DNA from: Streptomyces sp. TS71-3
Lineage (GTDB): Bacteria; Actinomycetota; Actinomycetes; Streptomycetales; Streptomycetaceae
DNA length: 64,000 nt
Direction: 5' to 3'
Assembly: GCF_018327685.1 (NCBI RefSeq)
Contig: NZ_BNEL01000003.1
Coordinates: 1,550,001 to 1,614,000 of the forward strand
The position numbers and the translations under genes were made by a program. The stretch's first letter is position 1; every line of letters starts with the position of its first letter. A model generated the notes under the pieces. It had not been told where the DNA came from, did not search any database, and saw only the letters and a program-made list of their open reading frames with translations. This document shows positions 8,298 through 27,776 of the stretch, piece after piece.

Positions 8298-9056
8298 ATG
8301 ATGAACCCGGATTTCTACACGCGGGTTGCCGACGAGTTCGGCGAATACACCAGCAGCGGCCTGCGTACCGACGTCTTCCCGGACGGTGATCCGGAGGCTG
8401 CGTTCGACGAGCTGTCGGCGGGCCTGGGTGGTCCGAACGGCCGGCTGGTCGATGTCGGCTGCGCCGACGGGCGCAGCCTGCTGAGGATCGCCCCGGCGTT
8501 CGGCAGCGTGCTCGGTATCGACATGTCGGAGTCGATGCTGGAGTCCGCCGAGCGGCAGCGTGCGGAGGCGGGGCTGGGCAACGTCAGGTTCGAGCGGCGT
8601 GACGCTTCCCGCACCGGCCTTCCTGACGGGGAGGCTGACGTGCTCACATCGCGGCGAGGGCCGTTGTTCCCGGAAGAGTTCCGCAGGGTGCTCAAGCCCG
8701 GCGGTCATCTGATCTACATGGGCATCGGTGAGACGGACGTCCGCGCGTTGAAGGAGGCCTTCGGCCGGGGCCAGCTCTACGGGCGCTGGGACGGCAGGCC
8801 GGTGATGGACGAGGTGGTGGAGGAGCTCACCAGGGCCGGTTTCACGGTGGTGCTGGAGAAGGCCTTCCGTACCGAGGAGCTTTACCACTCGCCGGTCGAA
8901 CTCGACACGTTCCTGCGCCAGGTCCCGATCTTCGAGGACTACGACACGGTGGCGGACCGGGTTCCGTTCGAACGCTATGTGGCCTCCGCAGGCAGTGGCC
9001 GCGGCGTCCGGCTCGATCGGCACTGGTTCGTGGTCCAGGCGCGGAGGGCGGCATGA
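8298..9056 (+). CDS. Class I SAM-dependent methyltransferase
   Basis: About 252 aa. Rossmann motif I is LVDVGCADGRSLL (about 50-63), with the acidic motif II at GIDMSESML and post-motif FRRVLKPGGHLIYMG; together these are a Methyltransf_11 fold. It would methylate a small molecule in the cluster; whether on N, O or C cannot be told. Starts are possible at GTG 8295, ATG 8298 or ATG 8301; GAGG at 8288 favours one of the ATGs. Its stop overlaps the aminotransferase start (ATGA at 9053-9056), so the two are translationally coupled. It is the first gene of the rightward operon. Confidence 0.88.
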   Translation: MMNPDFYTRVADEFGEYTSSGLRTDVFPDGDPEAAFDELSAGLGGPNGRLVDVGCADGRSLLRIAPAFGSVLGIDMSESMLESAERQRAEAGLGNVRFERRDASRTGLPDGEADVLTSRRGPLFPEEFRRVLKPGGHLIYMGIGETDVRALKEAFGRGQLYGRWDGRPVMDEVVEELTRAGFTVVLEKAFRTEELYHSPVELDTFLRQVPIFEDYDTVADRVPFERYVASAGSGRGVRLDRHWFVVQARRAA

Positions 9057-10312
9057 CGGTCTTCACCGATCTTGAGTCGGAGGTCCGCAGTTACAGCCGG
9101 CTTTGGCCCGTCGTGTTCGACCGGGCGGAGGGCAGCCGGCTGTTCTCCGAGGACGGTCGGCCTTACCTGGATTTCTTCACCGGTGCGGGTGCGCTCAACT
9201 ACGGTCACAACAACGGTTTCCTCAAGCAGGCCCTGTTGGACTACATCGTCCGGGACGGGGTCTCGCATGCCCTGGACATGTTCACCGTGGCGAAGCGGGA
9301 CTTTCTCGAGACCTTCCAGGACGTTCTCCTGACGCCGCGAGGGCTGCGTTACAAGGTGCAGTTCCCCGGTCCGGGTGGAGCCAACGCGGTTGAGGCCGCT
9401 CTGAAGCTCGCCCGGCGTGTCACCGGACGGCAGTCGGTGGTGAGCTTCACCAACTCCTTCCACGGGATGACCTTGGGGGCCCTCGCGGTCAGCGGCAGTG
9501 CGGCGAAACGTGCGGCCGCCGGCGTGGCCCTGACCTCGGCGACCGCGTTGCCGTACGACGGATACCCGGGCATCGGGGACACCGGCCCGCGCTATCTCGA
9601 CCGGTTGTTGTCGGACGGGGGCAGCGGGCTGGACCGCCCCGCAGCTGTGATCGTGGAGACGGTCCAGGGCGAGGGCGGGTTGAGGGCCGCCGACGCGGAG
9701 TGGCTGCGCGACCTCGCTGGTGTGTGCGAACGGCACGAGGTGCTGCTCATCGTGGACGACGTCCAGATGGGCTGCGGCCGAACGGGACCGTTCTTCAGCT
9801 TCGAGGATGCCGGGATCACTCCCGACATGGTGTGCCTGTCCAAGTCCATCGGAGGGTTCGGCCTTCCTCTGGCCCTCACTCTCATCCGGCCGGAGCTGGA
9901 CGTCTGGAAACCGGGCGATCACAGCGGGACCTTCCGCGGTGTCAGCGGGTCCTTCGTGACCGGAGCGCAGGCGCTGCGCTCCTACTGGAGCGACGGGACG
10001 CTGGAGAAGTCCACCCGCGAGCGAGGGCAGCGGATCGCGACGGCCCTGGCCGCCATCGCCGCCGAGCACCCCGCGGCGGGCCTGGAGGTTCGGGGCCGCG
10101 GGCTCGCGGCGGGGCTGCGGCTCACCGCCCCCGGCGCGGCCCGCGGGGTGTGCGTCGCGGCCTTCGAGAACGGCCTGCTCATGGAGACGTCCGGTGCGGC
10201 CGCCGACGTGGTGAAGCTGCTCCCCCCGCTGACCATCAGCGACGACGACCTGGACGAAGGTCTCGACATCATCCGTGCGTGCGTGGGCGCGGTACTCGCG
10301 CGGAGCAAGTGA
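9053..10312 (+). CDS. Class III aminotransferase, EctB (diaminobutyrate--2-oxoglutarate transaminase) like
   Basis: 419-aa PLP enzyme. Family features: FFTGAGALNYGHNN near residue 43, HGMTLGALAVSG, the cofactor aspartate in LLIVDDVQMGCGRTG, and the Schiff-base lysine in CLSKSIGGFGLPLAL. The overall pattern is that of EctB, which transfers an amino group to aspartate semialdehyde to give 2,4-diaminobutyrate. No ectA, ectC or aspartokinase gene is present, so ectoine is not the product. I infer that it aminates an aldehyde building block, perhaps derived from methylaspartate or diaminobutyrate. It overlaps the methyltransferase by 4 bp. Confidence 0.9.
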   Translation: MTVFTDLESEVRSYSRLWPVVFDRAEGSRLFSEDGRPYLDFFTGAGALNYGHNNGFLKQALLDYIVRDGVSHALDMFTVAKRDFLETFQDVLLTPRGLRYKVQFPGPGGANAVEAALKLARRVTGRQSVVSFTNSFHGMTLGALAVSGSAAKRAAAGVALTSATALPYDGYPGIGDTGPRYLDRLLSDGGSGLDRPAAVIVETVQGEGGLRAADAEWLRDLAGVCERHEVLLIVDDVQMGCGRTGPFFSFEDAGITPDMVCLSKSIGGFGLPLALTLIRPELDVWKPGDHSGTFRGVSGSFVTGAQALRSYWSDGTLEKSTRERGQRIATALAAIAAEHPAAGLEVRGRGLAAGLRLTAPGAARGVCVAAFENGLLMETSGAAADVVKLLPPLTISDDDLDEGLDIIRACVGAVLARSK

Positions 10313-10324
10313 GAGGTGACGGCT

Positions 10325-11320
10325 GTGCCAGGCAGTATTCCCGAGGTCGACCTGGAGGCGTGGCGTAGGGCATCCGACGCCGATCGCACTCCGATCGCAG
10401 CCACGCTGGACGCCGCACTGCGCGGCACCGGAATGTTTCTCTTGTCCGGGCACGGTGTCCCGCAAGACGTCATCGACGACTTCAGGGCCACCGCCAAGCG
10501 GTTCTTCGCCTTCCCCAGGGAGGTCAAGGCCCAGTACGCCATCGAGGCCGCGTACGAAAGCGGGTGGCTTGAGATGCATCCCCCCGGTGGTGTCGGCGTG
10601 CCCGTGAGCGAGGGCGATCAGGCTCCGAGCGCCCCGGATCTCCACGAGTCCTTCTACGTCGGGCCTGGTCACCACACCGGCGACGAGCGGCGGGACCGGT
10701 TCAACTATCCGGCGAACCGCTGGCCGGTCGAGCTACCGGAGTTGCGGGCGGCCGCGGATGCGTACACGACGCACATGGTGCGGGTGGTACAGGCCGTCAA
10801 TGAGGTGCTTGCCGTCACGCTGGGGCTGCCGGACGACTTCTTCACCTCGCGGGCGCGGATGGCGACGTGGACGCAGAACGCCAGCTGGTACCCGTCGTAC
10901 GCGAGTATCGGAGAGGTCGCTCGCGGCCAGTTCCGCAACGGGCCGCATACCGACCTGGGCACCGTCACGCTGCTGAGCCGTCAGCGGGGCGTGGGTGGGT
11001 TGCAGGCATGGAACGAGGAGGACGGCTGGTTCTCGCCGCCGTATCGTCCGGACTCGCTCATCGTCAATCTCGGTGACCTGATGGAGCTGTGGACCGATGG
11101 GCGGTGGCGGGCGCTGAAGCACCGTGTGCTTCCGCCCAGCCCGGCGGCTCCGGATGAGGAACTGCTGTCGCTGGTCTTCTTCTTCGAGACCGACCCCGAA
11201 ACGCTGATCGAGCCGCTGACCGCCACGACAGGCGGCGGCCGGGGGCTGCCGGCGGCGCCTGCGCGGCGGACGGTGCTCGAAAAGCTCGGTGTGTCGCCCG
11301 ACTCCGTCCCGGTGGGCTGA
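10325..11320 (+). CDS. Isopenicillin N synthase-like non-haem iron oxygenase
   Basis: 331 aa from GTG 10325, chosen because GAGAGG at 10311-10316 is 8 nt upstream; GTG 10316 would be too close to it. The N-terminal DIOX_N domain (FLLSGHGVPQDVIDDF) is followed by the jelly-roll 2OG-FeII_Oxy domain. The iron ligands appear as HTD in GPHTDLGTVTLL and a distal His in RALKHRV. The Arg of the usual RxS motif is replaced: the segment reads EELLSLVFFF, where the family normally has RxS. Binding of 2-oxoglutarate may therefore differ, as in enzymes that use another co-substrate. Substrate unknown. It sits 12 nt after the aminotransferase stop. Confidence 0.88.
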   Translation: MPGSIPEVDLEAWRRASDADRTPIAATLDAALRGTGMFLLSGHGVPQDVIDDFRATAKRFFAFPREVKAQYAIEAAYESGWLEMHPPGGVGVPVSEGDQAPSAPDLHESFYVGPGHHTGDERRDRFNYPANRWPVELPELRAAADAYTTHMVRVVQAVNEVLAVTLGLPDDFFTSRARMATWTQNASWYPSYASIGEVARGQFRNGPHTDLGTVTLLSRQRGVGGLQAWNEEDGWFSPPYRPDSLIVNLGDLMELWTDGRWRALKHRVLPPSPAAPDEELLSLVFFFETDPETLIEPLTATTGGGRGLPAAPARRTVLEKLGVSPDSVPVG

Positions 11321-11323
11321 GGC

Positions 11324-12004
11324 ATGAGCAAGATCGTTGCCGTTGTGTCCGGCGGGATCGACTCGGTGACCATGGCGCATCACCTCGCCGCCGAGGGCCA
11401 CACACTCCAGGTGATGGCCGTTGACTACGGTCAGCGCCACCGCAAGGAGCTGGAGTTCGCCGCCGCTGCCGCGGACCGGCTCGGTGCGCTGTACGAAGAG
11501 GTCGATCTGCGCTCGCTGCGGAGTGTCATGCGTGGCTCGTCGCTGACGGATCCGTCCGTGGCCGTGCCCCGCCCGGACAGGCCTGTCGGCGGGAACCCGA
11601 ACATCGTTCCGAACCGCAACGCCGTGCTGCTGTCGGTGGCCTTCGCGCTGGCGGTCACAGTGCAGGCGGATGCCGTTGCCTTCGGGGTCATGGCCGAGGA
11701 CGTCGGCCCGTCCGACACCTCTCCGGAATTCCTACGGCTGTTCCTGGAGGTGGAGCGGGTGGCGACCAGGGGTTCTCTTGCGCCCGAGGTCGAACTGCTC
11801 GCTCCGCTGATCGCACTGCCGAAGACCGGAGTCGTCGCTCTCGGCGAGAAGCTCGGCGTGCCCTGGGACCAGACGTGGACGTGCTTCCGCGGTGAGGACA
11901 TCCACTGCGGTGCGTGTGCGGCGTGTGCCGAGCGGCGCGGGGCGTTCGCGGATCTGGGCATCACGGACCCGACGGTCTATCGCGAAGCGTGGACACCGCG
12001 GTGA
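11324..12004 (+). CDS. queC: 7-cyano-7-deazaguanine (preQ0) synthase QueC
   Basis: 226 aa. Converts 7-carboxy-7-deazaguanine to preQ0 with ATP and ammonia, the last step of the pathway. The N-terminal PP-loop is VVSGGIDSVTMAHHL (Ser-Gly-Gly nucleotide motif), followed by DYGQRHRKEL. The C-terminal zinc site has four cysteines within CFRGEDIHCGACAACAERR, as in known QueC proteins. NPNIVPNRNAVLLSVA matches the central family motif. It starts 3 nt after the oxygenase stop and is followed by queE, queD and folE, so all enzymes from GTP to preQ0 are encoded together. Confidence 0.96.
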   Translation: MSKIVAVVSGGIDSVTMAHHLAAEGHTLQVMAVDYGQRHRKELEFAAAAADRLGALYEEVDLRSLRSVMRGSSLTDPSVAVPRPDRPVGGNPNIVPNRNAVLLSVAFALAVTVQADAVAFGVMAEDVGPSDTSPEFLRLFLEVERVATRGSLAPEVELLAPLIALPKTGVVALGEKLGVPWDQTWTCFRGEDIHCGACAACAERRGAFADLGITDPTVYREAWTPR

Positions 12005-12056
12005 TGGGGGCCGGACGCCTCATCTGTGGCTTCGGTACGGAAGGAGGCGATGTCGC

Positions 12057-12770
12057 GTGGAACCGGAACTCGTAGTCAACGAGATCTTCGGCCCGACCGT
12101 GCAGGGCGAGGGCAGGTCCATGGGCCGCAGGTGCGCGTTCCTGCGGCTCGGTGGTTGCAACCTGTCGTGCACCTGGTGCGACACGCCCTACACGTGGGAC
12201 TGGACCGGGGCGGGCGACTCCGGAGTCAAGTACGACCCCCGCAAGGAGTTGCACCGCCGTCCCGTCACCGAGGTGGCCGGAGAACTCCTCGCGTTCGGCG
12301 TCGAGCTGATCGTCATCTCCGGCGGCGAGCCGCTCGGCCAGCAGAACCGGCTGGTCCCGCTGGTCGAGCTGCTCACGGCGCGAGGCCTGGAGATCGAGAT
12401 CGAGACCAACGGCACGCATGCCGCAGACCCCGCTCTGATCGCCGCCGGGGTCCGCTTCAACGTCTCGCCGAAGCTGGCCCACTCGGGCGATCCGGTCCAT
12501 CGGCGGATCGTGCCGGACGCGCTGAAAAGCCTCGCGGTGACGGAGGGCACCACGTTCAAGTTCGTCTGCCGCAACGCCGGCGACCTGGACGAGGTGGCGG
12601 AACTGGTCGAGGAGTTCGGGCTCGACTCGGTCTGGATCATGCCGAAGGGGCAGACGGGCGCCGAGGTGAGCCGGCACATGGCCGAGCTGGCCGACGCGGT
12701 GATCGCACGGGGCTGGAATCTCACCACACGCCTGCACACCTTGTTGTGGGGCGACACGCGAGGTGTCTGA
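12057..12770 (+). CDS. queE: 7-carboxy-7-deazaguanine synthase QueE (radical SAM)
   Basis: 237 aa from GTG 12057, which has AAGGAGG at 12041-12047. It catalyses the radical ring contraction of 6-carboxytetrahydropterin to 7-carboxy-7-deazaguanine. The sequence opens with NEIFGPTVQGEGRSMGRR, and the [4Fe-4S] cluster cysteines lie in CNLSCTWCDTPYTWDW, the CxxxCxxC spacing known for many QueE proteins. ISGGEPLGQ and IEIETNGT are the expected SAM- and substrate-binding motifs. In-frame sequence upstream of 12057 is read-through from the queC tail, not part of the gene. It lies between queC and queD. Confidence 0.96.
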   Translation: MEPELVVNEIFGPTVQGEGRSMGRRCAFLRLGGCNLSCTWCDTPYTWDWTGAGDSGVKYDPRKELHRRPVTEVAGELLAFGVELIVISGGEPLGQQNRLVPLVELLTARGLEIEIETNGTHAADPALIAAGVRFNVSPKLAHSGDPVHRRIVPDALKSLAVTEGTTFKFVCRNAGDLDEVAELVEEFGLDSVWIMPKGQTGAEVSRHMAELADAVIARGWNLTTRLHTLLWGDTRGV

Positions 12771-12809
12771 ACGCGTGGCCGAATCAAGCGAGAAAGACGA
12801 ATCGGAGAC

Positions 12810-13172
12810 ATGACGCTGCGCATCACGAAGAAGTTCGAGTTCTCTGCCAGCCACCGGCTCTCCGGCCTGGCCGAGGGGCACCAGTGTGCTCGGCTGCACG
12901 GCCACAACTACGTCGTCGAGCTGGAGCTGAGTGCCGATCCGACGGAACTGACGCCGACGGGGTTCGTGCGTGACTACGGCGAGTTGGCCCCCTTCAAGTC
13001 GTGGCTCGACCGGACGCTCGACCACCGTCACCTCAACGACCTGGTGGACAGGAATCCCACGGCCGAGAACCTGGCGGTGTGGCTCTACGAGCGCTGGTCG
13101 AAGGAGTTCCCGGAGCTGACGTCCGTGCGAATCTCCGAAACCCCCAAGACCTGGGCCGAGTACCGGCCCTGA
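12810..13172 (+). CDS. queD: 6-carboxy-5,6,7,8-tetrahydropterin synthase QueD
   Basis: 120 aa, the usual size of the PTPS/QueD family. Converts dihydroneopterin triphosphate to 6-carboxytetrahydropterin. Zinc histidines are visible in ASHRL and LHGHNY; the catalytic cysteine is in QCARLHGHNY, spaced as in QueD. LDHRHLND and the Glu of PTAENLAVW complete the active-site pattern. ATG at 12810 has GGAGA just upstream. It follows queE by 39 bp and precedes folE, which supplies its substrate. Confidence 0.96.
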   Translation: MTLRITKKFEFSASHRLSGLAEGHQCARLHGHNYVVELELSADPTELTPTGFVRDYGELAPFKSWLDRTLDHRHLNDLVDRNPTAENLAVWLYERWSKEFPELTSVRISETPKTWAEYRP

Positions 13173-13256
13173 AACGCCGGCCGGCTGTCGAGAGCCGGCC
13201 GCCCGTTCATCGGAATCGAGCAACGGCCGTGCCGGTCGGACTGGAGAGGTGCCTGT

Positions 13257-13850
13257 ATGTCTGTGACGACGTGGGTGCAAGAGGGCGGCGTCGACTCGGA
13301 GAAGCCGCGAGAGGAAGACCCGCTGGTCGGAATCGCCCGGCAGCTCCTGAAAGAGATCGGGGAGGACCCCGACCGCGACGGGTTGCGCGATACACCGGCG
13401 CGGTTCGCCCGCTGGTGGCGCGAGTTCATCAATTACGAGCCGGGCTCGGTCGGCACGCTGTTCGAGTCGGTCGGCAGCGAGCAGTTGGTGGTCGTCTCGG
13501 ACATTCAGGTCTGGTCCCTCTGCGAGCACCACCTGCTGCCCTTCAACTGCGCGGTGACGATCGCCTACCGGCCGACCGACCGGTTGCTGGGCCTGTCGAA
13601 GTTCGCCCGGATCGCCCATCGGCACGCGCACAAGCTCCAGGTTCAGGAGCGGCTGGTGTCCGAGATCGCCGAGGACATCGCCACGCTCAGCGGGGCGAGG
13701 GACGTGGCCGTCATCGCCAAGGGCGAGCACCTGTGCATGACGATGCGCGGAATCAAGGCGGCCGCCCAGATGGCCTCGACGGCCTACCGCGGGGCCTTCG
13801 GCGAGGACGCCGGGCTCCGTGCCGAGATGTTCAACCTGCTGCACCCCTGA
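13257..13850 (+). CDS. folE: GTP cyclohydrolase I (cluster copy)
   Basis: 197 aa. Opens the GTP ring to give dihydroneopterin triphosphate and formate, the first committed step to preQ0. Zinc ligands: Cys and His in SLCEHHLLPF, second Cys in GEHLCMTMRGI. RIAHRHAHKLQVQERL and FSKFAR-like motifs are the family core (here LSKFARI). The first 20 residues are variable. ATG 13257 has GGAGAGG 9 nt upstream. As a biosynthetic-cluster copy it presumably adds to the housekeeping folE used for folate, raising GTP flow into the pathway. Confidence 0.96.
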   Translation: MSVTTWVQEGGVDSEKPREEDPLVGIARQLLKEIGEDPDRDGLRDTPARFARWWREFINYEPGSVGTLFESVGSEQLVVVSDIQVWSLCEHHLLPFNCAVTIAYRPTDRLLGLSKFARIAHRHAHKLQVQERLVSEIAEDIATLSGARDVAVIAKGEHLCMTMRGIKAAAQMASTAYRGAFGEDAGLRAEMFNLLHP

Positions 13851-13941
13851 AACCGGTCCGCATCCCTGAGACCCATCCGGGGCCGCCGCCACGGCCCCTG
13901 TACACCGATCCGCGCTGCCGCGGCCCCGAGGAGCATGTGCC

Positions 13942-15396
13942 ATGGAAACACCATCGGTGTCAGGAATCGGTCGGATCTCCACTCGGCCTTCGGGGCGGGA
14001 GACGCCGATGAGCCTGCGCCGCGAACCGGCCGTCGCGGCCGGTGAGCCGGTCAAGCAGACTGTTCCGACCGGATTCCGTGAGGGCTGGGACGATGGCGGG
14101 ACGGGGACGGGAGCTACGCTCTTCGGCCGACGGCTCCGCGACCTCCGACTCCAGGCCGGCCTTTCCCAGAAGCAGCTGGCGCGCTCCAGCACCCTCAGCG
14201 TTCGAGCGATCCGCGATCTGGAGAACGGGAGGGTACGGCAACCCAGGGCAGATTCTCTGCGCCTTCTCGCCGCCGCCCTCGGCCTCAGTGCCCTCCAGAT
14301 GAACCAGCTGGCGAACGGCCATTCGCCCGGCTTCCTGGCGGGGGTGGCCGAGCCGGCCGTGAGCGGCCCCTTCATCGGCCGCGAGCAGGAGCTGGCGGCG
14401 CTGACGACGATGCTCGGCGCCGAGCACCACCGCCTGGTCACGATCACCGGGATCGAAGGCGTCGGCAAGACACGGCTCGCACGGGAAGTGGGGCATGCAC
14501 TTGAGGCGGCCGAGCATTCGACCCTCCTCTGGCTGTCCCTCGACGACGGTCGGCACAGGAGCGGAAGTGCACCGGTTGGGGCTCCAGAGCAGCCCGAATG
14601 GCTGCGCGAGGTCGTGCACTCCGGGCCCTACAGCCGTCGGCGCTTCGTCGAGACCATCGGGGAGTCGAACAGCCTCCTCGTTCTCGACGGTGCCCGGCCG
14701 GAGGACGGGCTGGCGGAGATCACGGCTCATCTCATGGCGGCATGCCCTCGGCTGCGGATTCTCGTCACGACGAGAAACCCCGCTGGTATGCCTTTCGAGA
14801 CCCTTTTCCCGCTCGCACCGCTTCCGGTGCCCCCGTCGGACACCGAGTCGCCGGACTTCGACACAGCTGCATCGGTCGCGTTGCTGCTCGCCCAGACGAA
14901 GCGCATTCAGCCGTCCTTCCGCCTCGACGCTCATGTTCTCGCGGACGTCGCCCGGATCTGCCGCGCGCTCGACGGCCTTCCCGCGGCTCTCGAATCCGCG
15001 GCCCATTGGAGCTTGATCTACTCCATGCGGCAGCTCGCCCACCAACTCACCACCGAGCCGCTCGCCGTCGCGCGACGGCCCCAGGGCGGCCACCAGCAGC
15101 CGGACGCCTATGCGTCGGTCCACCACACCATTGCCGCGCTGAGCAACCGCCAACGTGACCTGCTCTCGACCATGTCCCGCAAAACGTCCCGTGACATGGA
15201 CGGTTACTGGTCGGTGCCAGAGGTGGCGGACGAGATGGGGCTGACGGCGGCGGAATGCGCCGACGACATGTACCACCTCCTTATCCTCGGCATCCTTCGC
15301 CGCGTCGACCATCACGACGTGGCGATGTTCAGGGTGCTCAACATCGTCAGCACGGTCGGCCAGAGCGCAATCGCCGGACAGAACGCAGCCGCGTGA
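13942..15396 (+). CDS. XRE-type HTH / NB-ARC regulator
   Basis: 484 aa. A disordered N-terminus (1-55) is followed by an HTH of the Cro/CI type (about 60-115, LRLQAGLSQKQLARSSTLSVRAIRDLENGR) and an STAND/NB-ARC ATPase domain with P-loop ITGIEGVGKTRLAREV (about 170-185), a likely Walker B at SLLVLDGAR and a sensor-like ILVTTRNP. There are no TPR repeats and no SARP domain. Similar proteins are ATP-dependent switches that control secondary-metabolism genes. ATG 13942 is preceded by GAGGAG. It is in the same direction as the preQ0 genes, 91 bp after folE. A candidate activator for this cluster. Confidence 0.85.
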   Translation: METPSVSGIGRISTRPSGRETPMSLRREPAVAAGEPVKQTVPTGFREGWDDGGTGTGATLFGRRLRDLRLQAGLSQKQLARSSTLSVRAIRDLENGRVRQPRADSLRLLAAALGLSALQMNQLANGHSPGFLAGVAEPAVSGPFIGREQELAALTTMLGAEHHRLVTITGIEGVGKTRLAREVGHALEAAEHSTLLWLSLDDGRHRSGSAPVGAPEQPEWLREVVHSGPYSRRRFVETIGESNSLLVLDGARPEDGLAEITAHLMAACPRLRILVTTRNPAGMPFETLFPLAPLPVPPSDTESPDFDTAASVALLLAQTKRIQPSFRLDAHVLADVARICRALDGLPAALESAAHWSLIYSMRQLAHQLTTEPLAVARRPQGGHQQPDAYASVHHTIAALSNRQRDLLSTMSRKTSRDMDGYWSVPEVADEMGLTAAECADDMYHLLILGILRRVDHHDVAMFRVLNIVSTVGQSAIAGQNAAA

Positions 15397-15424
15397 TCTG
15401 TGCACCATCAGGAAGGAAGAAACA

Positions 15425-16291
15425 GTGCGACTCTGCACTCTTCGCACCGAGACCGGTGAGGACGTCGGCGTGTCGATGCCCGGCGGGATCACCACGCTGA
15501 GCGTTATCAACGCGACCGCGGGAACCCTGTACGGACCCACCATGATGGACATCATCCTGAAGGGCGAGACAGTGGCGCTCGCGGCCACGGTCGCCTCCCT
15601 GCCCGGCGCCGGCGTGCCGGCCGCGCAGGGGGAGCCGGTGTTCGGGCCCCTCTACCGGCACCCGCCGAAGCTGTGGGGTGTGGGCCTGAACTACATGCGC
15701 CACGCCGACGACCTGGGGGTACGGCAGCCGACCGACGCCCCCGGCTCCTACCTGCGACCGGCCTCCACGGTGATCGGATACGACGACGACATCCTGCTGC
15801 CCAGCCAGTCGGGGCGCGTCACCGCCGAAGCCGAGCTCGGCGTGGTCATCGGCACCACCTGCCGCGACGTGACACCTGATAACGCCCCGTCCGTCATCTT
15901 CGGCTACACCAGCCTCCTGGACATGACCGCCGAGGACGCCATCCGGGTCAACCCCCGCCACATCCCCTGGGCGAAGGCCTTCGACACCTTCTGTAGCCTC
16001 GGCCCCTGGATCGTCACCCCCGACGAGATCCCCGACCTCTCCTCCGTGCGGATCTCCACCGTCGTCAACGGGCAGACGATCGCGTCCAACCGGGTATCCG
16101 CGATGATGTACGACCCCCATTGGCTGGTCGGCTACTTCTCCGGCGGTATGGCTCTGGAGGCGGGCAGCGTTATCGCCACGGGTACGCCGGGGGCGGGGGT
16201 CGTTCAGGACGGTGACGTCGTCGAGGCGCTCGTCGAGGGGGTCGGCGCGCTGCGCAACCGGGTCCGGCAGGCGGCAGCACGCACCGAGTAG
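15425..16291 (+). CDS. Fumarylacetoacetate hydrolase (FAH)-fold enzyme
   Basis: 288 aa from GTG 15425, behind GAAGGAAG. The FAH core spans about residues 65-280: KLWGVGLNYMRHADDLG, then the metal-binding acidic residues in TAEAELGVVIG (ExE) and the Asp in FGYTSLLDMTAED, and a C-terminal ATGTPGAGVV turn. FAH-fold enzymes cleave or hydrate 2-oxo/1,3-dicarbonyl acids. In catabolic loci a MhpD-type FAH works with an MhpE aldolase, and an MhpE-like aldolase is present here at 25363. I infer that the pair shapes an oxo-acid building block, possibly in the synthetic direction. Last gene of the rightward block. Confidence 0.88.
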   Translation: MRLCTLRTETGEDVGVSMPGGITTLSVINATAGTLYGPTMMDIILKGETVALAATVASLPGAGVPAAQGEPVFGPLYRHPPKLWGVGLNYMRHADDLGVRQPTDAPGSYLRPASTVIGYDDDILLPSQSGRVTAEAELGVVIGTTCRDVTPDNAPSVIFGYTSLLDMTAEDAIRVNPRHIPWAKAFDTFCSLGPWIVTPDEIPDLSSVRISTVVNGQTIASNRVSAMMYDPHWLVGYFSGGMALEAGSVIATGTPGAGVVQDGDVVEALVEGVGALRNRVRQAAARTE

Positions 16292-20197: not shown

Positions 20198-21112
20198 TCA
20201 CATCGAGGAGCCCGTCGTGTCCTCCGTGCCGGCCTCGTGTGAGAAATATCCGGTGGACGACTTCGTTCCGTCGCTCACGTGGGAGCCTTCCTGCACCTGG
20301 TACAGGGAGTTGAACTCCGCCGCCGCAATCGGGAGTCGCCACAGGCCGGCCTCGCTGCGAACGGTCCTTGCCAGACTGCCGCGCACGAGCTTTGCCGTCG
20401 GCTCGTTGTGCGCGGCGTGTGGACCGTAGTAGACGGGAAGGGCGTCGGCCGCGCGGTAGGACGGGATGAAGACACGGCGGTACATGTCCGAGAGGTTCTT
20501 CTCCGACGAGTGCAGGAGAAGGGGGTGGATGAACACGACCGATCCCGCGACCCCCTCGCAGTCGATGATCGCCGAGTCGTCCAGGCCCACGTCCGCGGGC
20601 GACGAGACCTTCCCCACGAAATGGCCCTCCGACTCGTGGTCGACAAGGCCGTGCCGGTGTGAACCGGCCACTACCCGCAGACAGGCGTTTTCCCGAGTCG
20701 CGTCGTCGAGGTAGATCAGCGAGGCGACCAGATCGGTGTTCGTGTGGGGGTAGTACGCGAAGTCCTGGTGCCACTCGACGACGCTGCCCACGCGCGGCGG
20801 CTTCACATTGAGCTTCGAGTACTGAAGCACGATGTCGGGACCGATCAGCTGTTCCACCGCGTCGAGGAGCCGAGTGTCCTCCGCGATGCCGGCGAAGAGC
20901 TCGTCCCGCGAGGTCGGAGCCCAGATACGGCGAGCCTTTGAGCCGTCTTCCGGCTCTGCCTCGGCCACGCTGGCGAGGTTGGCGGAGGAGAGCAGGCCGT
21001 CGACGACGGATCGCGCCTTCTCGACCAGCTCGTCTTCAAATATCCCGTCAACGACGCAGAACCCGTTCTCACGGTAGAAATCAACCTGACTCTGGCTCAG
21101 GATGCTGTCCAT
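20198..21112 (-). CDS. Phytanoyl-CoA dioxygenase (PhyH)-family oxygenase
   Basis: 304 aa from ATG 21112 (MDSILSQSQVDFYRENGFCVVDG), which has GGAAGGG 7 nt upstream; a longer start at 21130 lacks a ribosome site. The iron facial triad is visible: HxD in VEWHQDFAYY and the distal His in VFIHPLLLHSSEKN, with an Arg in YRRVFIPSYR that could bind 2-oxoglutarate. Family members hydroxylate or halogenate small molecules and free or tethered amino acids. First gene of the leftward four-gene operon, divergent from the glutamate mutase unit. Confidence 0.9.
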   Translation of the reverse strand: MDSILSQSQVDFYRENGFCVVDGIFEDELVEKARSVVDGLLSSANLASVAEAEPEDGSKARRIWAPTSRDELFAGIAEDTRLLDAVEQLIGPDIVLQYSKLNVKPPRVGSVVEWHQDFAYYPHTNTDLVASLIYLDDATRENACLRVVAGSHRHGLVDHESEGHFVGKVSSPADVGLDDSAIIDCEGVAGSVVFIHPLLLHSSEKNLSDMYRRVFIPSYRAADALPVYYGPHAAHNEPTAKLVRGSLARTVRSEAGLWRLPIAAAEFNSLYQVQEGSHVSDGTKSSTGYFSHEAGTEDTTGSSM

Positions 21113-21246
21113 CGAATAACCCTTCCGCATAGTAACGTGGTAGCTACCGCAGATTCTTACGGTCTAATTCGTACACGTTGCCCGGCACGTGCCGCAAGAC
21201 ATACCTCGCCATCCGGAGAGGCAGTTGAGCCACTTAATGTGCGCTT

Positions 21247-21440: not shown

Positions 21441-21609
21441 GTTCCGACCCGACAACAGGGACGACCGCACACCCGCAGGTGGTTGGTTCAAAGGGGCCTG
21501 GATTCCTCACTGCTACCTGTCGCCGAGCACGCGTGACGCACTGGTATGGCCCGGGTGCGGCAATCGGAACTGCCGCACCCGGGCAGCCGAAAGGTAACGG
21601 AGAAAAGCA
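21441..21609. other. Untranslated region before the glutamate mutase gene
   Basis: No gene. The last part has GGAGAA as the ribosome site and a GC-rich inverted segment: GGTGCGGCA-like and TGCCGCACC stretches at about 21550-21580 could pair and form a stem in the leader. Confidence 0.35.
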
Positions 21610-23529
21610 ATGAGATTGCCGATGCCAAGGTCGATCGTACTCGGCGGGATTGGCGCCGACGCTCATTCGGTGGGTCTCACGCTGCTGAAACACGCCATCA
21701 GCGAGGCAGGCCATGCGGTCCACTTCATGGGCACGCAGAACAACCTCGACGACTTTTTCAGGCACGCGGTCGACGCGGATGTCGTGATGATCTCCTGCAT
21801 GGACGGTCACCTGCGCCACTATCTGAAGGAATTTCCGGACCTGCTACTCAGGTATCCCGACATCGATGCGATCTGGTATGCCGGCGGAAATCTCGACGTG
21901 GGCAGTGCCGAACGGATACGCGGTGAAGCGCGCCGCCTGGGCTTTCGACGGGTCTTTCCGACGTACGTCGATATTCCGACGGTTCTCTCGGTCCTGGCCG
22001 AGGATCTCCTGACCAGGCGTCCTGGGGTACGCGGCAAACCCGCTGCTCCCCCCTGGCCCACCCAGCCGGGCACGGCACCGCCCGACCAGCGGCTGACCGT
22101 GGTCGACCTGCAACGGCAGCGACCCGCGGTTCTGGAATCCTGGCCGACCGGGGCGCGTGCGAGGGACCTGGCGGACAACGCGACGTTTCTCCTCCGGCAG
22201 CCGTCGTTCGCCGGGGCGCATGTGCCGCGGCTCCGGGCGGGACGACCGTTCCTGGTGCAGCCGCGTTCAGGCGTGGCGCTCGCCGCCGAGCAGCGCGCGG
22301 CATTCGGGGCCCTGCGTCGGGCCGGCGCGGACGTGATGTCCTACCAGATCGATTCGCTTACCAGAAACAACGACTACCAGAAGGCCGGTGAAGGGATCGC
22401 GGAGAGCCGGGAACGTGGTGCCTCCACGCTCAACGGATTTCCCATGGTAAATCACGGGGTCGACATTCTCCGGCAGTTGATCGCTGAGGTGCGGACGCCG
22501 CTACAGACCCGCCACAGCACACGCGACCCACGACTCCTCTGCGAGATTTCGTCTGCCGGTGGCGTCACCGGTTTCGAGGGTGGCGCGATCACGTACAACA
22601 TCCCATACTTCAAGGACTACTCGCTCGCCCAGTCGCTCAGAAGGTGGCAGTACGTCGATCGTCTGGTCGGCTTCTATCACGAGAAGTTCGGCGTGGTCAT
22701 CGACCGTGAGTTCTTCGGAACCCTCACCGCGGTCCTGGTCCCACCAAGTCTGGCGATCGTCGTCAATCTGATCGAGGCGATGCTGGCGGCCGGCCAGGGC
22801 GTGAGTTCCGTTTCACTCGGATACGCCGAACAGGGCAATCGATCCCAGGACATCGCGGCAATCAGGGTCCTGCGCGAACTGGGCCAGAAGTATCTGGCCA
22901 ACCTGGGATACCCGGGAATCCAGGTCAACATCGTCTTCCACCAGCACATGGCGGCATTTCCACAGGACCGGGCGCGGGCGACGCAGTTGATCGTGGCCTC
23001 GGCCGCCACCGGCCGGCTGTCGGGGGCTTCACGGCTGATCGTCAAGACACCGGTCGAGGCGACCACCATTCCGTCGGTGTCCGACAACCAGGAGGGCCTG
23101 CGCCTCAGCCGGCTGGGCGCGAGTGAGGCGAACGGCATGGAGGTGGACGAGCGAACGGTACGCGAGGAGGCCACCATCCTGCGGGCGGAGGTGGATCAGA
23201 TCCTTGAGAGTGTCCTGGTGGCCGGCGGCGGCAGCCTCACGGACGGCGTGGTGAAGGCTTTCGCGCGTGGTTATCTGGACGTTCCGTTCTCGCCCAGCGT
23301 CTACAACCGTGGCGAGGTGCTGACGGCTCGGGACGTTCAGGGCGCGGTGCGGTACCTGAACACTGGTCAGCTCAGGTTGAGCGCCGATGTCATCGACTTC
23401 CATCGGAGCCGGATGAGCGAACGTCGCAGGACCGAGGAACCACCTGTGCGAAGCGACTGGCAGCTTGTCGAACGCGATGTACTGCGAATACCAAGGGGTC
23501 ACTATCGAAGGTGGCCGCTTGACGCGTGA
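21610..23529 (+). CDS. Fused B12-dependent glutamate (methylaspartate) mutase
   Basis: 639 aa joining what are usually two proteins. Residues 1-135 form a GlmS-like B12-binding domain with the cobalamin motif DxHxxG in GIGADAHSVG. Residues about 175-620 are GlmE-like: NGFPMVNHGV, TRHSTRDPRLL, FEGGAITYNIPYFKDYSL, WQYVDRLVGFYHEKFG and SLGYAEQGNRSQDIAAIR. The reaction converts L-glutamate to (2S,3S)-3-methylaspartate, an amino acid used in nikkomycin-type and lipopeptide products. The two domains are joined by a Pro-rich linker (about 138-165). The promoter is the copy-1 repeat region. It likely supplies a methylaspartate unit for ligation. Confidence 0.93.
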   Translation: MRLPMPRSIVLGGIGADAHSVGLTLLKHAISEAGHAVHFMGTQNNLDDFFRHAVDADVVMISCMDGHLRHYLKEFPDLLLRYPDIDAIWYAGGNLDVGSAERIRGEARRLGFRRVFPTYVDIPTVLSVLAEDLLTRRPGVRGKPAAPPWPTQPGTAPPDQRLTVVDLQRQRPAVLESWPTGARARDLADNATFLLRQPSFAGAHVPRLRAGRPFLVQPRSGVALAAEQRAAFGALRRAGADVMSYQIDSLTRNNDYQKAGEGIAESRERGASTLNGFPMVNHGVDILRQLIAEVRTPLQTRHSTRDPRLLCEISSAGGVTGFEGGAITYNIPYFKDYSLAQSLRRWQYVDRLVGFYHEKFGVVIDREFFGTLTAVLVPPSLAIVVNLIEAMLAAGQGVSSVSLGYAEQGNRSQDIAAIRVLRELGQKYLANLGYPGIQVNIVFHQHMAAFPQDRARATQLIVASAATGRLSGASRLIVKTPVEATTIPSVSDNQEGLRLSRLGASEANGMEVDERTVREEATILRAEVDQILESVLVAGGGSLTDGVVKAFARGYLDVPFSPSVYNRGEVLTARDVQGAVRYLNTGQLRLSADVIDFHRSRMSERRRTEEPPVRSDWQLVERDVLRIPRGHYRRWPLDA

Positions 23530-23634
23530 GCGTTATTCAGTCGTGCCATGGCGAACAGGGACTGTGGGCGGTCCGAGCCCGCAGGACCCCGGAACCAACC
23601 GGGCCTCGACCCGTCACAGAAATGGATAGTCAAG

Positions 23635-24522
23635 ATGGCAAAGAAATTCACGATCCCCGAATTCACGATCCCGAGCTCCATGGCCTCGGGGCTGTTGGGG
23701 CGGGACATAGCCGCGGATACACCTCTGGACAAATGGCCGGAAGATCCGTTCCGGACGACCAGCGTTGAGATCAAGGCACTGGGTGGCGAGATGCTGGCAG
23801 CGATCCGCGGGGACGCGGGGGGCGCCATCGTGCGGGTCGACCCGGAGGGGCTCAGCGACCACGAAGTCTGCACGCTGTACTGGAACCTCTTCACGACGCT
23901 TTTCCGTCCGGTCCCGCAGTACAGCTCCGGCGAACTCATCTATCCCGTTGAGGTCAAGGCCGGAGCCGCGGAGACCAGTCACTACTCGAGTTCGAACAAG
24001 GCGGGCAACTATCACACCGATGGCACCTTGCTGCCGGAGCTGCCCGACGTTGCATTCCTGTTCGGCTTGTCCGCGGCGAGGGGTGGGGAGACGCTGCTGA
24101 TGGACGTCAACAACCTGGTCCAGCAGCTTACCCGGATCAACCCGGCACACGTCGCCGAACTGAGCCGACCCGTGCCCTTCGACGTGAAGGACCAGATCGC
24201 GGGAATCCGAATCAAACGGCAGCCCGTGCTCAAGCGCACAGCGGACGGCTACGAGCTGCGTTATGTCCGCATGTACATTGAGCAGGCGTTTGCGGCTGAG
24301 GACATGCCGGTGCCGGCAGAGCTTCTCGCGGCCATGGACGATTTCGACGAGGTCTCTTCTGCTGCGGCGGGAGACGCGGAGGCCGTGCTGCTCGAGCGTG
24401 GCGTCGGCCTGCTGTGGGACAACCGGCGGATGCTCCACGGCCGCCGACCTTTCCAGGAAACCACCTCCAATCGTAGGCTGCGCCGAATTTATGGGGTCCA
24501 GGACGACGGGCGAGCCAATTAA
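23635..24522 (+). CDS. TauD/clavaminate synthase-like Fe(II)/2-oxoglutarate oxygenase
   Basis: 295 aa from ATG 23635 (MAKKFTIPEFTIPSS). A longer frame from 23548 is possible, but neither start has a strong ribosome site. Iron ligands: HTD in NYHTDGTLL and the distal His in RRMLHGRRPF; the 2OG-binding Arg lies in NRRLRRIYG. The family hydroxylates amino acids and peptides at beta positions. It is immediately downstream of the glutamate mutase, so hydroxylation of 3-methylaspartate or a conjugate is a reasonable guess. It is followed by the cyclase-family gene 54 bp later. Confidence 0.9.
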   Translation: MAKKFTIPEFTIPSSMASGLLGRDIAADTPLDKWPEDPFRTTSVEIKALGGEMLAAIRGDAGGAIVRVDPEGLSDHEVCTLYWNLFTTLFRPVPQYSSGELIYPVEVKAGAAETSHYSSSNKAGNYHTDGTLLPELPDVAFLFGLSAARGGETLLMDVNNLVQQLTRINPAHVAELSRPVPFDVKDQIAGIRIKRQPVLKRTADGYELRYVRMYIEQAFAAEDMPVPAELLAAMDDFDEVSSAAAGDAEAVLLERGVGLLWDNRRMLHGRRPFQETTSNRRLRRIYGVQDDGRAN

Positions 24523-24576
24523 TCGGGGCAAGCCCACGCACGACATGATCCGAGAACGTGAAGGATGGAGCACCGC

Positions 24577-25227
24577 ATGCTGCCCACAGTCGATCTCTCC
24601 CACCCGCTGGAACCGGGCATGCCGCACGCGCGTACGGTCCCGGCCCCCGAATTCAAATCCACCAGCACATGGGCGGAACACCGGATGCGGGTCATGCGAC
24701 TGGACATGCCGACCCACATCGGCACCCACCTGGACGCGCCCTCGCACTTCGTCGAGGACGGTGCCACGGTCGACCAGTTGCCGCTGTCGACGCTGGTCGG
24801 TCCGGCCTACTGCCTCCAGGTACTGCGAGACGGCCCCGACCCGATCACGGCAGCGGACCTGAAGTCCGCCGTTGACCTCGAACCCGGTGACGCACTGCTG
24901 ATCCGCACCGGCTGGGACGACCGCTACGCCGAACCGGCTTACGTGGACGGGCACCCGTACCTCGCGGTCGACGCCGCCGAATGGGCTGTGGCCACAGGGC
25001 TTCGGCTCATCGGCATGGACACGATGAGCCCTGATCTGCCGATGAGCATGCGTCCGCCGAACTTCCCCTACGACGTACACCGCACGTTGCTGGGCGCCGG
25101 CACGCCGATCCTGGAGAACCTCGTGCTGCGGGAGATCCCGGACCGGTGGTGCACGCTGTTCATCGGCGTGCTCAATGTCCTCGGCGGTGACGGCGCACCC
25201 GCGCGGGCACTGGCCATGTTGGACTGA
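24577..25227 (+). CDS. Cyclase-family metal hydrolase (kynurenine formamidase fold)
   Basis: 216 aa from ATG 24577, preceded by GGAG with a 6-nt gap; ATG 24565 is the alternative. The PF04199 metal-binding signature HIGTHLDAPSHF appears at about residues 50-62, with IRTGWDDRY and LIGMDTMSPDLP further on. Members hydrolyse amides or formamides (for example N-formylkynurenine) or close and open rings. In this cluster it could remove a formyl group or cyclise an intermediate. Same transcription unit as the glutamate mutase and TauD genes. Confidence 0.88.
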   Translation: MLPTVDLSHPLEPGMPHARTVPAPEFKSTSTWAEHRMRVMRLDMPTHIGTHLDAPSHFVEDGATVDQLPLSTLVGPAYCLQVLRDGPDPITAADLKSAVDLEPGDALLIRTGWDDRYAEPAYVDGHPYLAVDAAEWAVATGLRLIGMDTMSPDLPMSMRPPNFPYDVHRTLLGAGTPILENLVLREIPDRWCTLFIGVLNVLGGDGAPARALAMLD

Positions 25228-25272
25228 AAGACAGGGCTGCCCAGAGGCAGTCGGGCCTGCCCATGCGCGCCT

Positions 25273-25391
25273 TTCTGCCGGGCTTCTGCCGCCGGTGGGT
25301 GTGCGTTTCTCGGCTAATGTCAATACCGCGCATTCCCCATTCTTCTCTGCTTGAGGTGTTCAATGTCAGAGACATCGCCGATGGTCGCCGT
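25273..25391 (+). promoter_or_regulatory. Duplicated promoter/leader, copy 2, with two 11-bp-spaced TTCTGCCG repeats
   Basis: TTCTGCCG at 25273 and 25284, then 23 bp to TAATGT (25315-25320), the same geometry as copy 1. It ends in GAGGTG and the ATG of the aldolase gene at 25363. The shared spacing to the -10 in both copies argues for a conserved activator site rather than chance similarity. Confidence 0.65.
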
Positions 25392-26397
25392 GGACGGGCG
25401 ATCATCCAGTGTCGAAATCCTGGACTGCACGCTCCGTGATGGTAGTTACGCCGTGGACTTCAAGTTCACCGAAAGCACGATCAGGAGAGTGCTGACCGGT
25501 CTTGAAGGATCAGGTGTTCGGTTCGTCGAGCTGGGCCACGGAATGGGCCTCAACGCCGCCGACCGCACGTCTCATCCAAGCCGTGTTTCCGACGTACGGT
25601 GCTTCAGCATCGCTTCCGAGACGCTGACGAGCGCGAGTTGGGGGATGTTCTGCATCCCGGGAATCGCCGAGCTGGATCATCTCCGACAGGCCGTGGCCGC
25701 CGGCATGCAGTTCGTCCGAGTCGGAGTGGATATCACTGCCGTCGCACCGGCCGAGGCCTTCATCGCCCTCGCCAAGGACCTCGGCATCACGGCGTTCGCC
25801 AACCTCATGAAGACGAACGTGCTCGGCTCCGACGGTGTCACGGATGCGGTCCGGCAGTGCGCGGAGTACGGCGCCGATACGGTCTACCTCGTCGATTCGG
25901 TGGGCGGTTACCTGCCGTCGGATGTCACCGAGTTGTTCGAGAAGGTCGGTCAGTCGGTGACGATTCCGCTCGGCTACCACGGACACGACAACCTGACCCT
26001 GGCCAACGCCAACTCGCTCGCGGCAGTGATGAGCGGAGCACGGTTCGTCGACACGACGCTCGACGGCATCGGCCGCGGAGCCGGCAACACCGTCACCGAG
26101 ACGTTCGCAGCGACCCTTCACGCCTGGGGCCATCGCAACACGTACGACTTCCGGGCCCTCGCGGAGCTGAGCGAGTCCGCCATCCGCCCGTTGGAGCGAC
26201 TGCACGACGACCGCACGTACCAGCTCGTCGGCGGCCTCACTCGAACTCACTCCAGCTTCTTCCCGCTGATCAGCAGGTGCGCGAAGACCGCGAACGTCGA
26301 TGTCTTCGAGTTGATGGCCGCAGTCGCCGAAATCGACCGGGTCCACCCCGGAGAGGACATGGTGCTGGCGGCCGCCAACGCCATGGCCGCGCGCTAG
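25363..26397 (+). CDS. 4-hydroxy-2-oxovalerate aldolase-like protein (DmpG/MhpE, HMGL-like)
   Basis: 344 aa from ATG 25363. TIM-barrel HMGL-like domain over almost the whole length: LDCTLRDGSYAVDFKF (metal-binding Asp), FVRVGVDITAV, VYLVDSVGGYLP, GYHGHDNLTLANANSLAA (metal-binding His pair) and DTTLDGIGRGAGNT. The C-terminal communication domain resembles MhpE, but no acylating aldehyde dehydrogenase (MhpF) gene is present. It could join pyruvate to an aldehyde. Together with the FAH-fold protein and the class III aminotransferase it could make a 4-hydroxy amino or oxo acid. Expressed from the copy-2 leader. Confidence 0.9.
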   Translation: MSETSPMVAVDGRSSSVEILDCTLRDGSYAVDFKFTESTIRRVLTGLEGSGVRFVELGHGMGLNAADRTSHPSRVSDVRCFSIASETLTSASWGMFCIPGIAELDHLRQAVAAGMQFVRVGVDITAVAPAEAFIALAKDLGITAFANLMKTNVLGSDGVTDAVRQCAEYGADTVYLVDSVGGYLPSDVTELFEKVGQSVTIPLGYHGHDNLTLANANSLAAVMSGARFVDTTLDGIGRGAGNTVTETFAATLHAWGHRNTYDFRALAELSESAIRPLERLHDDRTYQLVGGLTRTHSSFFPLISRCAKTANVDVFELMAAVAEIDRVHPGEDMVLAAANAMAAR

Positions 26398-26489
26398 CGG
26401 CGTCGCTACGGGTGTGGGTGACGCCGTGCTCGGAGCCGCTCGCCGTCGCCCGCCCCCGATGATTCGCATCCCCGGCCTGAGGAGATTCT

Positions 26490-27776
26490 GTGGAAACGAA
26501 TGACCCGGTGATCCTGCTGATCGACCCCGCCAGCAGAAACGGACCGGACTACAGGGCGGCCATACACGATCTTGGTTTCGCCGTGCTCTCGCTGTCCACA
26601 GGGGTGTCCACGGCCGCGAACCAGCAGGCCGGCCCCGACGGCGAGATGTCGCTCCAAGTCAGCGACGTGGACGACGCCGTCCGGCAGGTTCGTGCGGCTG
26701 GGGTCGACGTGCGCGCTGTCGTCCCCGCCCATGGGGCGAGCCTCCACGTGGCAGACGAGATCGCGGCGCGGCTCGGCCTGCCCGGGAACGACCCCGCTCT
26801 GGGCTGGGCGCGACTCAACAAGGCGGCGATGCGGGCCAGGGCAGCGGAAACGAGCGTCCGTATTCCGGAGCACCGGCTGGCCCACTCCCTCGGTGAGGTG
26901 GCGGAGGCCGCACGGGACATCGGCTTTCCCGTCATCGTGAAGCAGACGATGGGAACGGGGTCCTATGGCGTTTCTGTGATCAGTGACGCGGCGGCTCTGG
27001 ACGAGGCAGGCAAGGTGTGGACGGTGGACCTGCTCGGCCTGCCGGTCACCGAATGGTTGGTGGAGCGCTACGTACGCGGGCGCGAGTACGCCGTGAACTT
27101 CTGTAGCGCCGACGGTGAGCACCGGCTGATCGACATCTGGGAGTACCGACGGCCCGACCACCGGGACTACGACTTTCCCCTGTGGGACATCATCCAGATC
27201 GACAGCGCCCATCCCGACCACGTCCGAGTGGAGCGGTTCTGTAGGCAGGTGCTCGATGCGTTCGGCATCCGCCAGGGGCCGGGCCACATCGAGGTCAAAT
27301 GCAGTGGCGACGGAGACGACGTCTACCTGATCGAGCTCGCGGCCCGGTTCACGGGCGGACCTGCGGTGCCGATGTGGACGAGGCACTCTGACCTGCGGCC
27401 GTTCCACGACGCCGTGGAGTGCTACCTCGGCCGTCGTCCGAACATGATCGACGGGGATCACGGGTTCAGGGCTGTGCTCGGCTCCGTTGTCATCCGCAAC
27501 GACGACGCCCCCGGCACGCTGGTGGCCGTGCACGGGCTGGATGAGCTGGGCGCCCTGCCCGGCATCGCTGATGTGCTCGTGGAGTTCAGGCCCGGCGACC
27601 ATGTGCCGACCACCACCCACAACATGTGCATTCCGGTCAGTGCCTCGGTGCACGGGCCGGACCGAGCGACCGTGCTCCGCACCATGGCCATCGCTAGGGA
27701 GACGGTCAGGCTGGAGATCGCCCCCGACCCTGCCGAGCCGACCGTAGCGGCACCGGACGCTGTCGCCGCAGGCTGA
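26490..27776 (+). CDS. ATP-grasp ligase 3 (paralogue of ligase 2)
   Basis: 428 aa from GTG 26490, behind GAGGAG. Landmarks: LNKAAMRARAAETSVRIPEH, the ATP-binding Lys in FPVIVKQTMGTGSYGVSVI, WLVERYVRGREYAVNF, IEVKCSGDGDDVYLIELAARF and VPTTTHNMCIPVS. Side by side with ligase 2 it keeps the same blocks (DIWEYRRPDHRDY, VRGRE, PTT....IPV), which points to gene duplication inside the cluster followed by change of substrate. It probably makes a second amide bond. Last gene of the cluster, 92 bp after the aldolase and convergent with the TetR gene. Confidence 0.92.
   Translation: METNDPVILLIDPASRNGPDYRAAIHDLGFAVLSLSTGVSTAANQQAGPDGEMSLQVSDVDDAVRQVRAAGVDVRAVVPAHGASLHVADEIAARLGLPGNDPALGWARLNKAAMRARAAETSVRIPEHRLAHSLGEVAEAARDIGFPVIVKQTMGTGSYGVSVISDAAALDEAGKVWTVDLLGLPVTEWLVERYVRGREYAVNFCSADGEHRLIDIWEYRRPDHRDYDFPLWDIIQIDSAHPDHVRVERFCRQVLDAFGIRQGPGHIEVKCSGDGDDVYLIELAARFTGGPAVPMWTRHSDLRPFHDAVECYLGRRPNMIDGDHGFRAVLGSVVIRNDDAPGTLVAVHGLDELGALPGIADVLVEFRPGDHVPTTTHNMCIPVSASVHGPDRATVLRTMAIARETVRLEIAPDPAEPTVAAPDAVAAG

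Follow-up and report, generated by a model that had tools for sequence, protein, structure and literature searches.

The window analysed here, a stretch of 64,000 nucleotides from Streptomyces sp. TS71-3 (contig NZ_BNEL01000003.1, positions 1,550,001 to 1,614,000), contains at positions 8295-27776 a cluster of 18 genes, in a genome of 9.79 Mb in 3 contigs. On balance we favour the reading that its product is 7-deazaguanine-7-carboxamide joined to amino acids and that 7-cyano-7-deazaguanine (preQ0) is not made. Central to this reading is a QueC homologue of an altered clade, here called QueC* (11324..12004, + strand; PF06508, 160.7 bits), which has an ATP-grasp gene nearby at 24/24 loci, compared with 0/38 for the other QueC loci. 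This linkage supports the proposal in the initial annotation that a deazaguanine acid is amide-linked to amino acids. All of the enzymes named in that annotation are present, although the genes number 18 and not 17. The cluster appears to be one of a wider family for which no description was found in the open-access literature.

When compared with two solved QueCs and with the QueC-like enzyme Cap9, the window QueC* retains the SGGxDS, YxQxHxxE and VPxRN motifs and the zinc cysteines. PSDT replaces YPDC, however, and Phe replaces Tyr189, the residue after the first zinc cysteine, so that the earlier statement that all active-site motifs are present does not hold for QueC. QueC* has lost Tyr131 and retains the Asp that follows two residues later. 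In Cap9 the residue equivalent to Tyr131 makes a stacking contact with the base, and N1/N2 are read by the Asp two residues further along (PMC13279940). In E. coli, queuosine is no longer formed with QueC Y131A or Y189A, and Y131F is partly active; the passages on these mutants report no Y189F (PMC13329287). The lack of two tyrosines whose alanine mutants fail in E. coli weakens both the 'preQ0 pathway' label first given to the cluster and the nitrile that was offered as an alternative to the acid.

These changes extend across the QueC* proteins. YPDC is missing from 24/24 and position 131 is never aromatic in the 24; the Tyr189 position carries Phe in 23/24 and Met in 1/24, and in two proteins (G825 and G985) a CY string is found only at a later cysteine, not at the first zinc cysteine. 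In a tree of 62 QueCs the altered proteins form a single clade with 100/100 support, with G624 and G517 as long branches; G624 is an odd member of the other QueC type, with LPDA but CY. Against TIGR00364 (cut-off 150.3) the window protein scores 137.1 and four of the five other QueC* tried also fall below, compared with 180-204 for all five of the YPDC type. The window protein thus departs from canonical QueC in YPDC/Tyr131, Tyr189 and the TIGR00364 score. Among the best 120 of 1482 homologues, the named ones of which are mostly from Streptomyces and relatives, 105 lack YPDC, 100 of those also lack CY, and the 15 with YPDC all keep CY. Database sources annotate QueC* proteins as 7-cyano-7-deazaguanine synthase, which may be wrong.

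Could QueC* still be a preQ0 synthase, with the nitrile either kept or later turned by amine attack into an amidine, cyclic in the case of a 1,3-diamine? We consider this rather improbable. The retained motifs and zinc cysteines would fit such an activity, Phe may replace Tyr189 given that Y131F is partly active in E. coli (PMC13329287), and EctB, found in 10/24 QueC* loci, would give a 1,3-diamine. Set against these points are the inactivity of both alanine mutants of E. coli QueC, with a non-aromatic residue at position 131 in every QueC*, and the retention of YPDC and CY at 37/38 other QueC loci, among them huimycin-like loci with a described relative in which the nitrile is retained. For three nitrile-handling families, moreover, no match among those listed falls within the QueC* loci of 23 genomes, which again agrees with the acid amide first proposed. 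QueF occurs once in those genomes, adjoining the YPDC-type QueC of G165. The nitrile hydratase alpha family, which matched 0/14 control genomes, is present in 6/23, twice beside a YPDC-type QueC (G681b, G693b) and never in a QueC* locus. Among the nitrilase matches listed, none lies in a QueC* locus and one (G681, contig 2) adjoins a YPDC-type QueC. At the Streptomyces angustmyceticus locus, for which annotation alone was used, the annotation of 30.7 kb names no QueF, nitrile hydratase or nitrilase.

The own genome gave no match for tRNA-guanine transglycosylase (TGT), which was found in 14/14 control genomes, and none for QueF, found in 8/14; the tRNA queuosine pathway was rejected on these grounds. 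Taken more broadly, ordinary metabolism of the toyocamycin, huimycin or queuosine type shares the four que/folE enzymes with the window and is nevertheless very improbable, since the phosphoribosyltransferase and glycosyltransferase families are matched by 0/18 genes and the genome lacks TGT and QueF matches.

The link between QueC* and ATP-grasp genes rests on two sets of loci. In a family sample of 297 genomes, QueC was matched at E 1e-15 in 29 genomes and 33 places, of which 32 were put in context (G039 was left out). Twelve of these places, together with one on the S. angustmyceticus plasmid NZ_CP104318.1, are of the altered type, and 13/13 have an ATP-grasp gene; the ATP-grasp hidden Markov model (HMM) found none at the 20 other family places, at five places in the 394 genomes of a class sample or on plasmid L093. 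Five early loci and the window had themselves been found through their ATP-grasp gene. A cleaner set was then drawn from 392 genus genomes, giving 24 new QueC places, for which the call was made from the QueC motif and recorded beforehand: 'with' was right in 11/11 cases and 'without' in 13/13. These loci were judged on 13-20 kb around each QueC, and some stretches around QueC end close to a contig end; one (G667) is identical to L093 and is counted once in the 38. The HMM derives from six ligases found in QueC* clusters, and a very different ligase near a YPDC-type QueC could escape it. QueC was also matched in 129 plasmid records, mostly of rhizobia, two of which (H1, H2) were looked into. 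Of 59 genomes with an ATP-grasp match, the best eight besides the own genome comprise five with que genes and three without.

What, then, might QueC* do? Cap9 of type IV CBASS (cyclic oligonucleotide-based antiphage signalling system) joins 7-carboxy-7-deazaguanine (CDG) to a protein N-terminal Gly (PMC11996544, PMC13279940), and a model-based structure comparison by VIA-align suggests Cap9 as the best match of the window QueC*. Because the tyrosines are lost, the Asp is kept and Cap9 provides a precedent, we tentatively regard QueC* as a small-molecule deazaguanyl ligase, which would adenylate CDG and attach it to the amine of either a free amino acid or a peptide. Jointly with this role, and equally tentatively, it may be a natural-product counterpart of Cap9 that marks out a modular family of deazaguanine-amino acid clusters.

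Two other readings keep an amide. QueC* might halt at 7-amido-7-deazaguanine, with the amino acids attached elsewhere or an ATP-grasp enzyme acting on CDG first. On the way to preQ0, QueC is known to form this amide (ADG) first (PMC13329287), and the reaction could stop there once residues required for full activity are lost; taken alone, however, the idea leaves unexplained why 24/24 loci combine QueC* with ATP-grasp ligases from different lineages, and we hold it to be unlikely. We give a similarly low probability to the possibility that CDG is coupled to the amino acid by an ATP-grasp ligase, with another role for QueC*. ATP-grasp L-amino acid ligases do form amides, and none of the QueC* loci is without an ATP-grasp gene. 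Yet the ligases beside QueC* fall into three or more distinct lineages and not into one clade (in a tree in which long branches that meet were flagged), and relatives of ligase lineage A occur also in stretches where no que genes were found (G225, G228, G261). Those stretches (L030-L035) carry two or three ATP-grasp genes, one of them kin of ligase A, and gave no que matches within the 36-37 kb examined. QueC* is the constant partner, and the ligases and amino acid genes differ between loci, the pattern to be expected with QueC* acting on the base and the ligases on the amino acids.

Several observations weigh against the favoured reading of an amide conjugate without preQ0, or against parts of the pathway built on it. 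The motif change apparently arose once, so that counting cannot separate clade from function; with a single apparent origin, the counts show tight linkage and not repeated independent gain. The QueC* of L136 scores 150.8, just above the TIGR00364 cut-off, and 5/105 of the homologues without YPDC retain the second tyrosine (CY). These five (P0042, P0044, P0046, P0047 and P0056) combine GPSDT with CY and may be intermediate stages in the loss of the two tyrosines. Foldseek places two canonical QueCs above Cap9 in the model comparison. Cap9 itself keeps YxDC, so that amide chemistry does not require loss of this Tyr. The E. coli mutant at position 189 carries Ala, in contrast to the Phe or Met of QueC*, and with Y131F partly active nitrile formation need not be abolished. 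The joining of CDG could also be the work of the ATP-grasp ligases. Finally, the window aldolase reads DGSYA, without the His of the DGMHA seen in the aligned 4-hydroxy-2-oxovalerate aldolase.

Gene content, family membership, the motif changes and the tight link of QueC* with ATP-grasp genes are observed. The pathway that we infer, in its reactions, step order, bond-making enzyme and product, would be as follows. FolE, QueD and QueE convert GTP to CDG, as is known for these families, and would do so here. QueC* would adenylate CDG, would no longer complete the nitrile, and would most likely pass the acyl group to an amine on the amino acid or peptide that the cluster assembles. EctB would supply L-2,4-diaminobutyrate; in a subtype of three loci, glutamate mutase would supply 3-methylaspartate, which the three oxygenases, the aldolase, the FAH-fold enzyme and the cyclase could elaborate. 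The ATP-grasp ligases would make the remaining peptide bonds, and a major facilitator superfamily (MFS) pump would export the product, which is probably a deazaguanine carboxamide peptide.

The individual enzymes fit their families to different degrees. QueE (12057..12770, +; a radical SAM protein, PF04055, best PDB match 5tgs) has a GTG start, preceded by GAAGGAGG, and QueD (12810..13172, +; PF01242, 112.9 bits) was aligned to solved QueD-type enzymes. Both are divergent family members by sequence, since they fall below the NCBI equivalog cut-offs: QueE scores 99 bits with TIGR03365 (cut-off 206) and QueD 85.7 with TIGR03367, slightly under 89.25. FolE (13257..13850, +; PF01227) is one of two in the genome. 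Its CEHHL and the CX3CX2CDT of QueE are retained in 24/24 QueC* loci; a crude pattern for the QueD motif matches 15/24, the misses shown carrying M or V for L. The aminotransferase (9053..10312, +; best PDB match 6rl5) exceeds the EctB equivalog cut-off of TIGR02407 (610 versus 552.2), which makes diaminobutyrate the best-supported predicted building block; the nearest other EctB homologue in the own genome is 60% identical and is located elsewhere.

In the mutase (21610..23529, +), B12-binding and catalytic parts are fused. The catalytic part exceeds the curated TIGR01503 cut-off (444.5 versus 390.1), the B12 part falls under its own cut-offs (78.3 versus 110 and 62.3 versus 135.8), and the B12 motif DxHxxG reads DAHSVG. 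Ten positions, which we take to be those of the glutamate mutase substrate site, were compared with the solved enzyme. Nine of the ten are identical and K322 is replaced by R, which makes it likely that the enzyme converts glutamate to 3-methylaspartate. The 3-methylaspartate component of the initial annotation is confined within the family to the 3/24 QueC* loci that have the mutase. With the mutase alone as query the genome contigs gave one locus, a single-protein search of this kind finding close kin only. The HMGL-type 4-hydroxy-2-oxo acid aldolase homologue (25351..26397, +; PF00682) is under the TIGR03217 equivalog cut-off (216.7 versus 286) and passes that of subfamily PRK08195 (249.8 versus 229).

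The three ATP-grasp ligases are a (26490..27776, +; PF13535, PF18603) and b (18870..20123, -; PF13535, PF18603), which are of the L-amino-acid-ligase type and group together in the tree, and the divergent c (16410..17627, -; PF02655, 29 bits). The longest open reading frame (ORF) of ligase c begins at 17789; alignment with its G058 counterpart, which matches from residue 50 of this long frame onwards, suggests a start near 17627. Three Fe oxygenases are present: an isopenicillin N synthase (IPNS)-like 2-oxoglutarate (2OG)/Fe(II) enzyme (10316..11320, +; PF14226 and PF03171), whose crude pattern H[TS]D is matched by 12/22 of the IPNS-like oxygenases, and Fe(II)/2OG enzymes of the PhyH type (20198..21130, -; PF05721) and TauD type (23548..24522, +; PF02668). 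The FAH-fold hydrolase/decarboxylase (15425..16291, +; PF01557, 192.7 bits) has relatives in the PDB. Beyond the enzymes first listed, the cluster encodes a class I S-adenosylmethionine (SAM) methyltransferase (8295..9056, +; PF13649, 57 bits), a PF04199 'cyclase', or arylformamidase-like metal hydrolase (24565..25227, +), an MFS exporter (17641..18864, -; PF07690) and an XRE-HTH/NB-ARC-type regulator (13942..15396, +; PF01381, PF00931). By blastp, similarity of the methyltransferase to that of the huimycin-like locus G293 was not beyond chance.

A homologue search of genomes found all 18 genes also in G058, from another genus of the same family (74-94% identity across the 18), and in G721, of the same genus as the window (68-93%), so the cluster is not a chance grouping. 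In G058 the methyltransferase is 87% identical, ligase a 78% and ligase c 76%, and the MFS exporter matches at its start and at 74%. In both genomes the block equivalent to 16410-27776 is inverted relative to the window. Queries from the window flanks (two LuxR, TetR, ADH and MBL) gave no match in G058, which supports borders near 8295 and 27776. G058 also has an extra EctB-like copy (81%), at L020:18422-19501 and continuing into L021, between its aldolase and cyclase genes. GC content at third codon positions (GC3) is 0.78-0.92 for the 16/18 cluster genes in the ORF list, compared with at least 0.90 in 10/12 window ORFs of at least 300 amino acids at 40-64 kb, and most genes in the G058 copy lie at 0.90-0.97; the window copy may therefore have been acquired. 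Two DDE transposase genes (PF13546, PF13359) lie downstream of the cluster at 35607-37429. A pattern scan for palindromic sites gave 0 matches.

QueC* is found in 12/297 family genomes and 12/392 genus genomes (the own genome being in both counts), in the class sample in the own genome only (1/394), and on one named plasmid, that of S. angustmyceticus. The 24 loci sort into six types by gene content. Type I (window, G058, G721) is the 18-gene form with the mutase. Type II (G165, G247, G655) has EctB, an IPNS-like oxygenase, ligase A and MFS, with a methyltransferase in two; type III (G118, G100a, G066, G124a, G179, G177a) has an oxygenase, methyltransferase, ligase B and MFS, with EctB in four. 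Type IV (S. angustmyceticus, G771, G880, G971a, G821, G930) has a methyltransferase, an Asp/Asn hydroxylase, an oxygenase and a further ligase. Type V (G035, G825, G985) has an oxygenase, DapD-, aminotransferase- and LysA-like genes and ligase A; type VI (G161, G693a, G681a) has ligase A kin and MFS, with a further ligase in two. The DapD-, LysA- and NikA-like labels come from reading the sequences, and among these assignments only the class I/II aminotransferase of G035 is confirmed by Pfam. A second family of que clusters was also seen, at 11 loci (L073, L074, L072, L075, L076, L077, L078, L079, L099, L100, L139), with QueC-QueD-QueE followed by GT2, radical SAM, GT4 and 5'-3' exonuclease-family (PF02739/PF01367) genes; FolE is inside the stretch in 7/11.

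The deazapurine clusters of toyocamycin/sangivamycin, tubercidin and huimycin make nucleosides or glycosides (PMC7439116, PMC6112128, PMC12648386). If our reading is correct, the QueC* loci would represent a separate branch of deazapurine metabolism, in which the base bears amino acids, and could show how an enzyme that makes a nitrile turns into one that ligates an amide, a step also taken by the anti-phage protein Cap9. QueC without YPDC and without CY would then serve as a sequence marker for mining such clusters. A search of the open-access literature, judged mostly by title and with subscription journals, preprints, MIBiG and antiSMASH outside it, found no deazaguanine natural product with ATP-grasp ligases; one paper found for this topic deals with other clusters (PMC11888242).

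How does the cluster compare with known systems? Clusters of the toyocamycin/tubercidin type carry phosphoribosyltransferase and purine-tailoring genes. No Pfam family of either kind is present among the 18 genes, as the initial annotation had noted for toyocamycin- and sangivamycin-type genes, and this type was rejected. The toyocamycin/sangivamycin and tubercidin clusters resemble the window in their CDG-forming enzymes (PMC6112128, PMC12648386) and differ from its 18 genes in ribose attachment and in nitrile or carboxyl handling. The huimycin cluster of Kutzneria albida likewise has QueC, QueD, QueE, FolE and a SAM methyltransferase; it also has a glycosyltransferase, and the nitrile is kept (PMC7439116). 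The huimycin/dapiramicin type was rejected, there being no glycosyltransferase among the 18 genes, and huimycin-like loci, named by gene content only, differ further in having a YPDC/CY QueC and no ATP-grasp gene seen.

A locus of Actinocrispum wychmicini (L004:6075-13492) shares with the window a fused glutamate mutase (62%), an HMGL-type aldolase and a TauD gene, beside a gene that, from reading its sequence, resembles an acylating aldehyde dehydrogenase; none of the que queries matched in its 21.9 kb, and it looks like a portable amino-acid module. The peptidyl part of nikkomycin, a uridine peptide with a pyridyl group, similarly involves a glutamate mutase, an HMGL-type aldolase and an ATP-grasp enzyme. 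In the echiguanines of Streptomyces sp. MI698-50F1 a 7-deazaguanine amide bears a side chain rich in nitrogen, and we know of no gene cluster for them. They are the nearest chemistry to the predicted product known to us and serve as a lead, not as a test; a figure legend of PMC6112128 mentions echiguanine A. Finally, Cap9 resembles QueC* in its QueC fold, in its use of CDG and ATP and in having no Tyr after the first zinc cysteine (CE in Cap9). The window protein does not fit Cap9 itself: Cap9 keeps YxDC and has a CD-NTase partner, whereas QueC* has PSDT and the 18 genes include no CD-NTase family.

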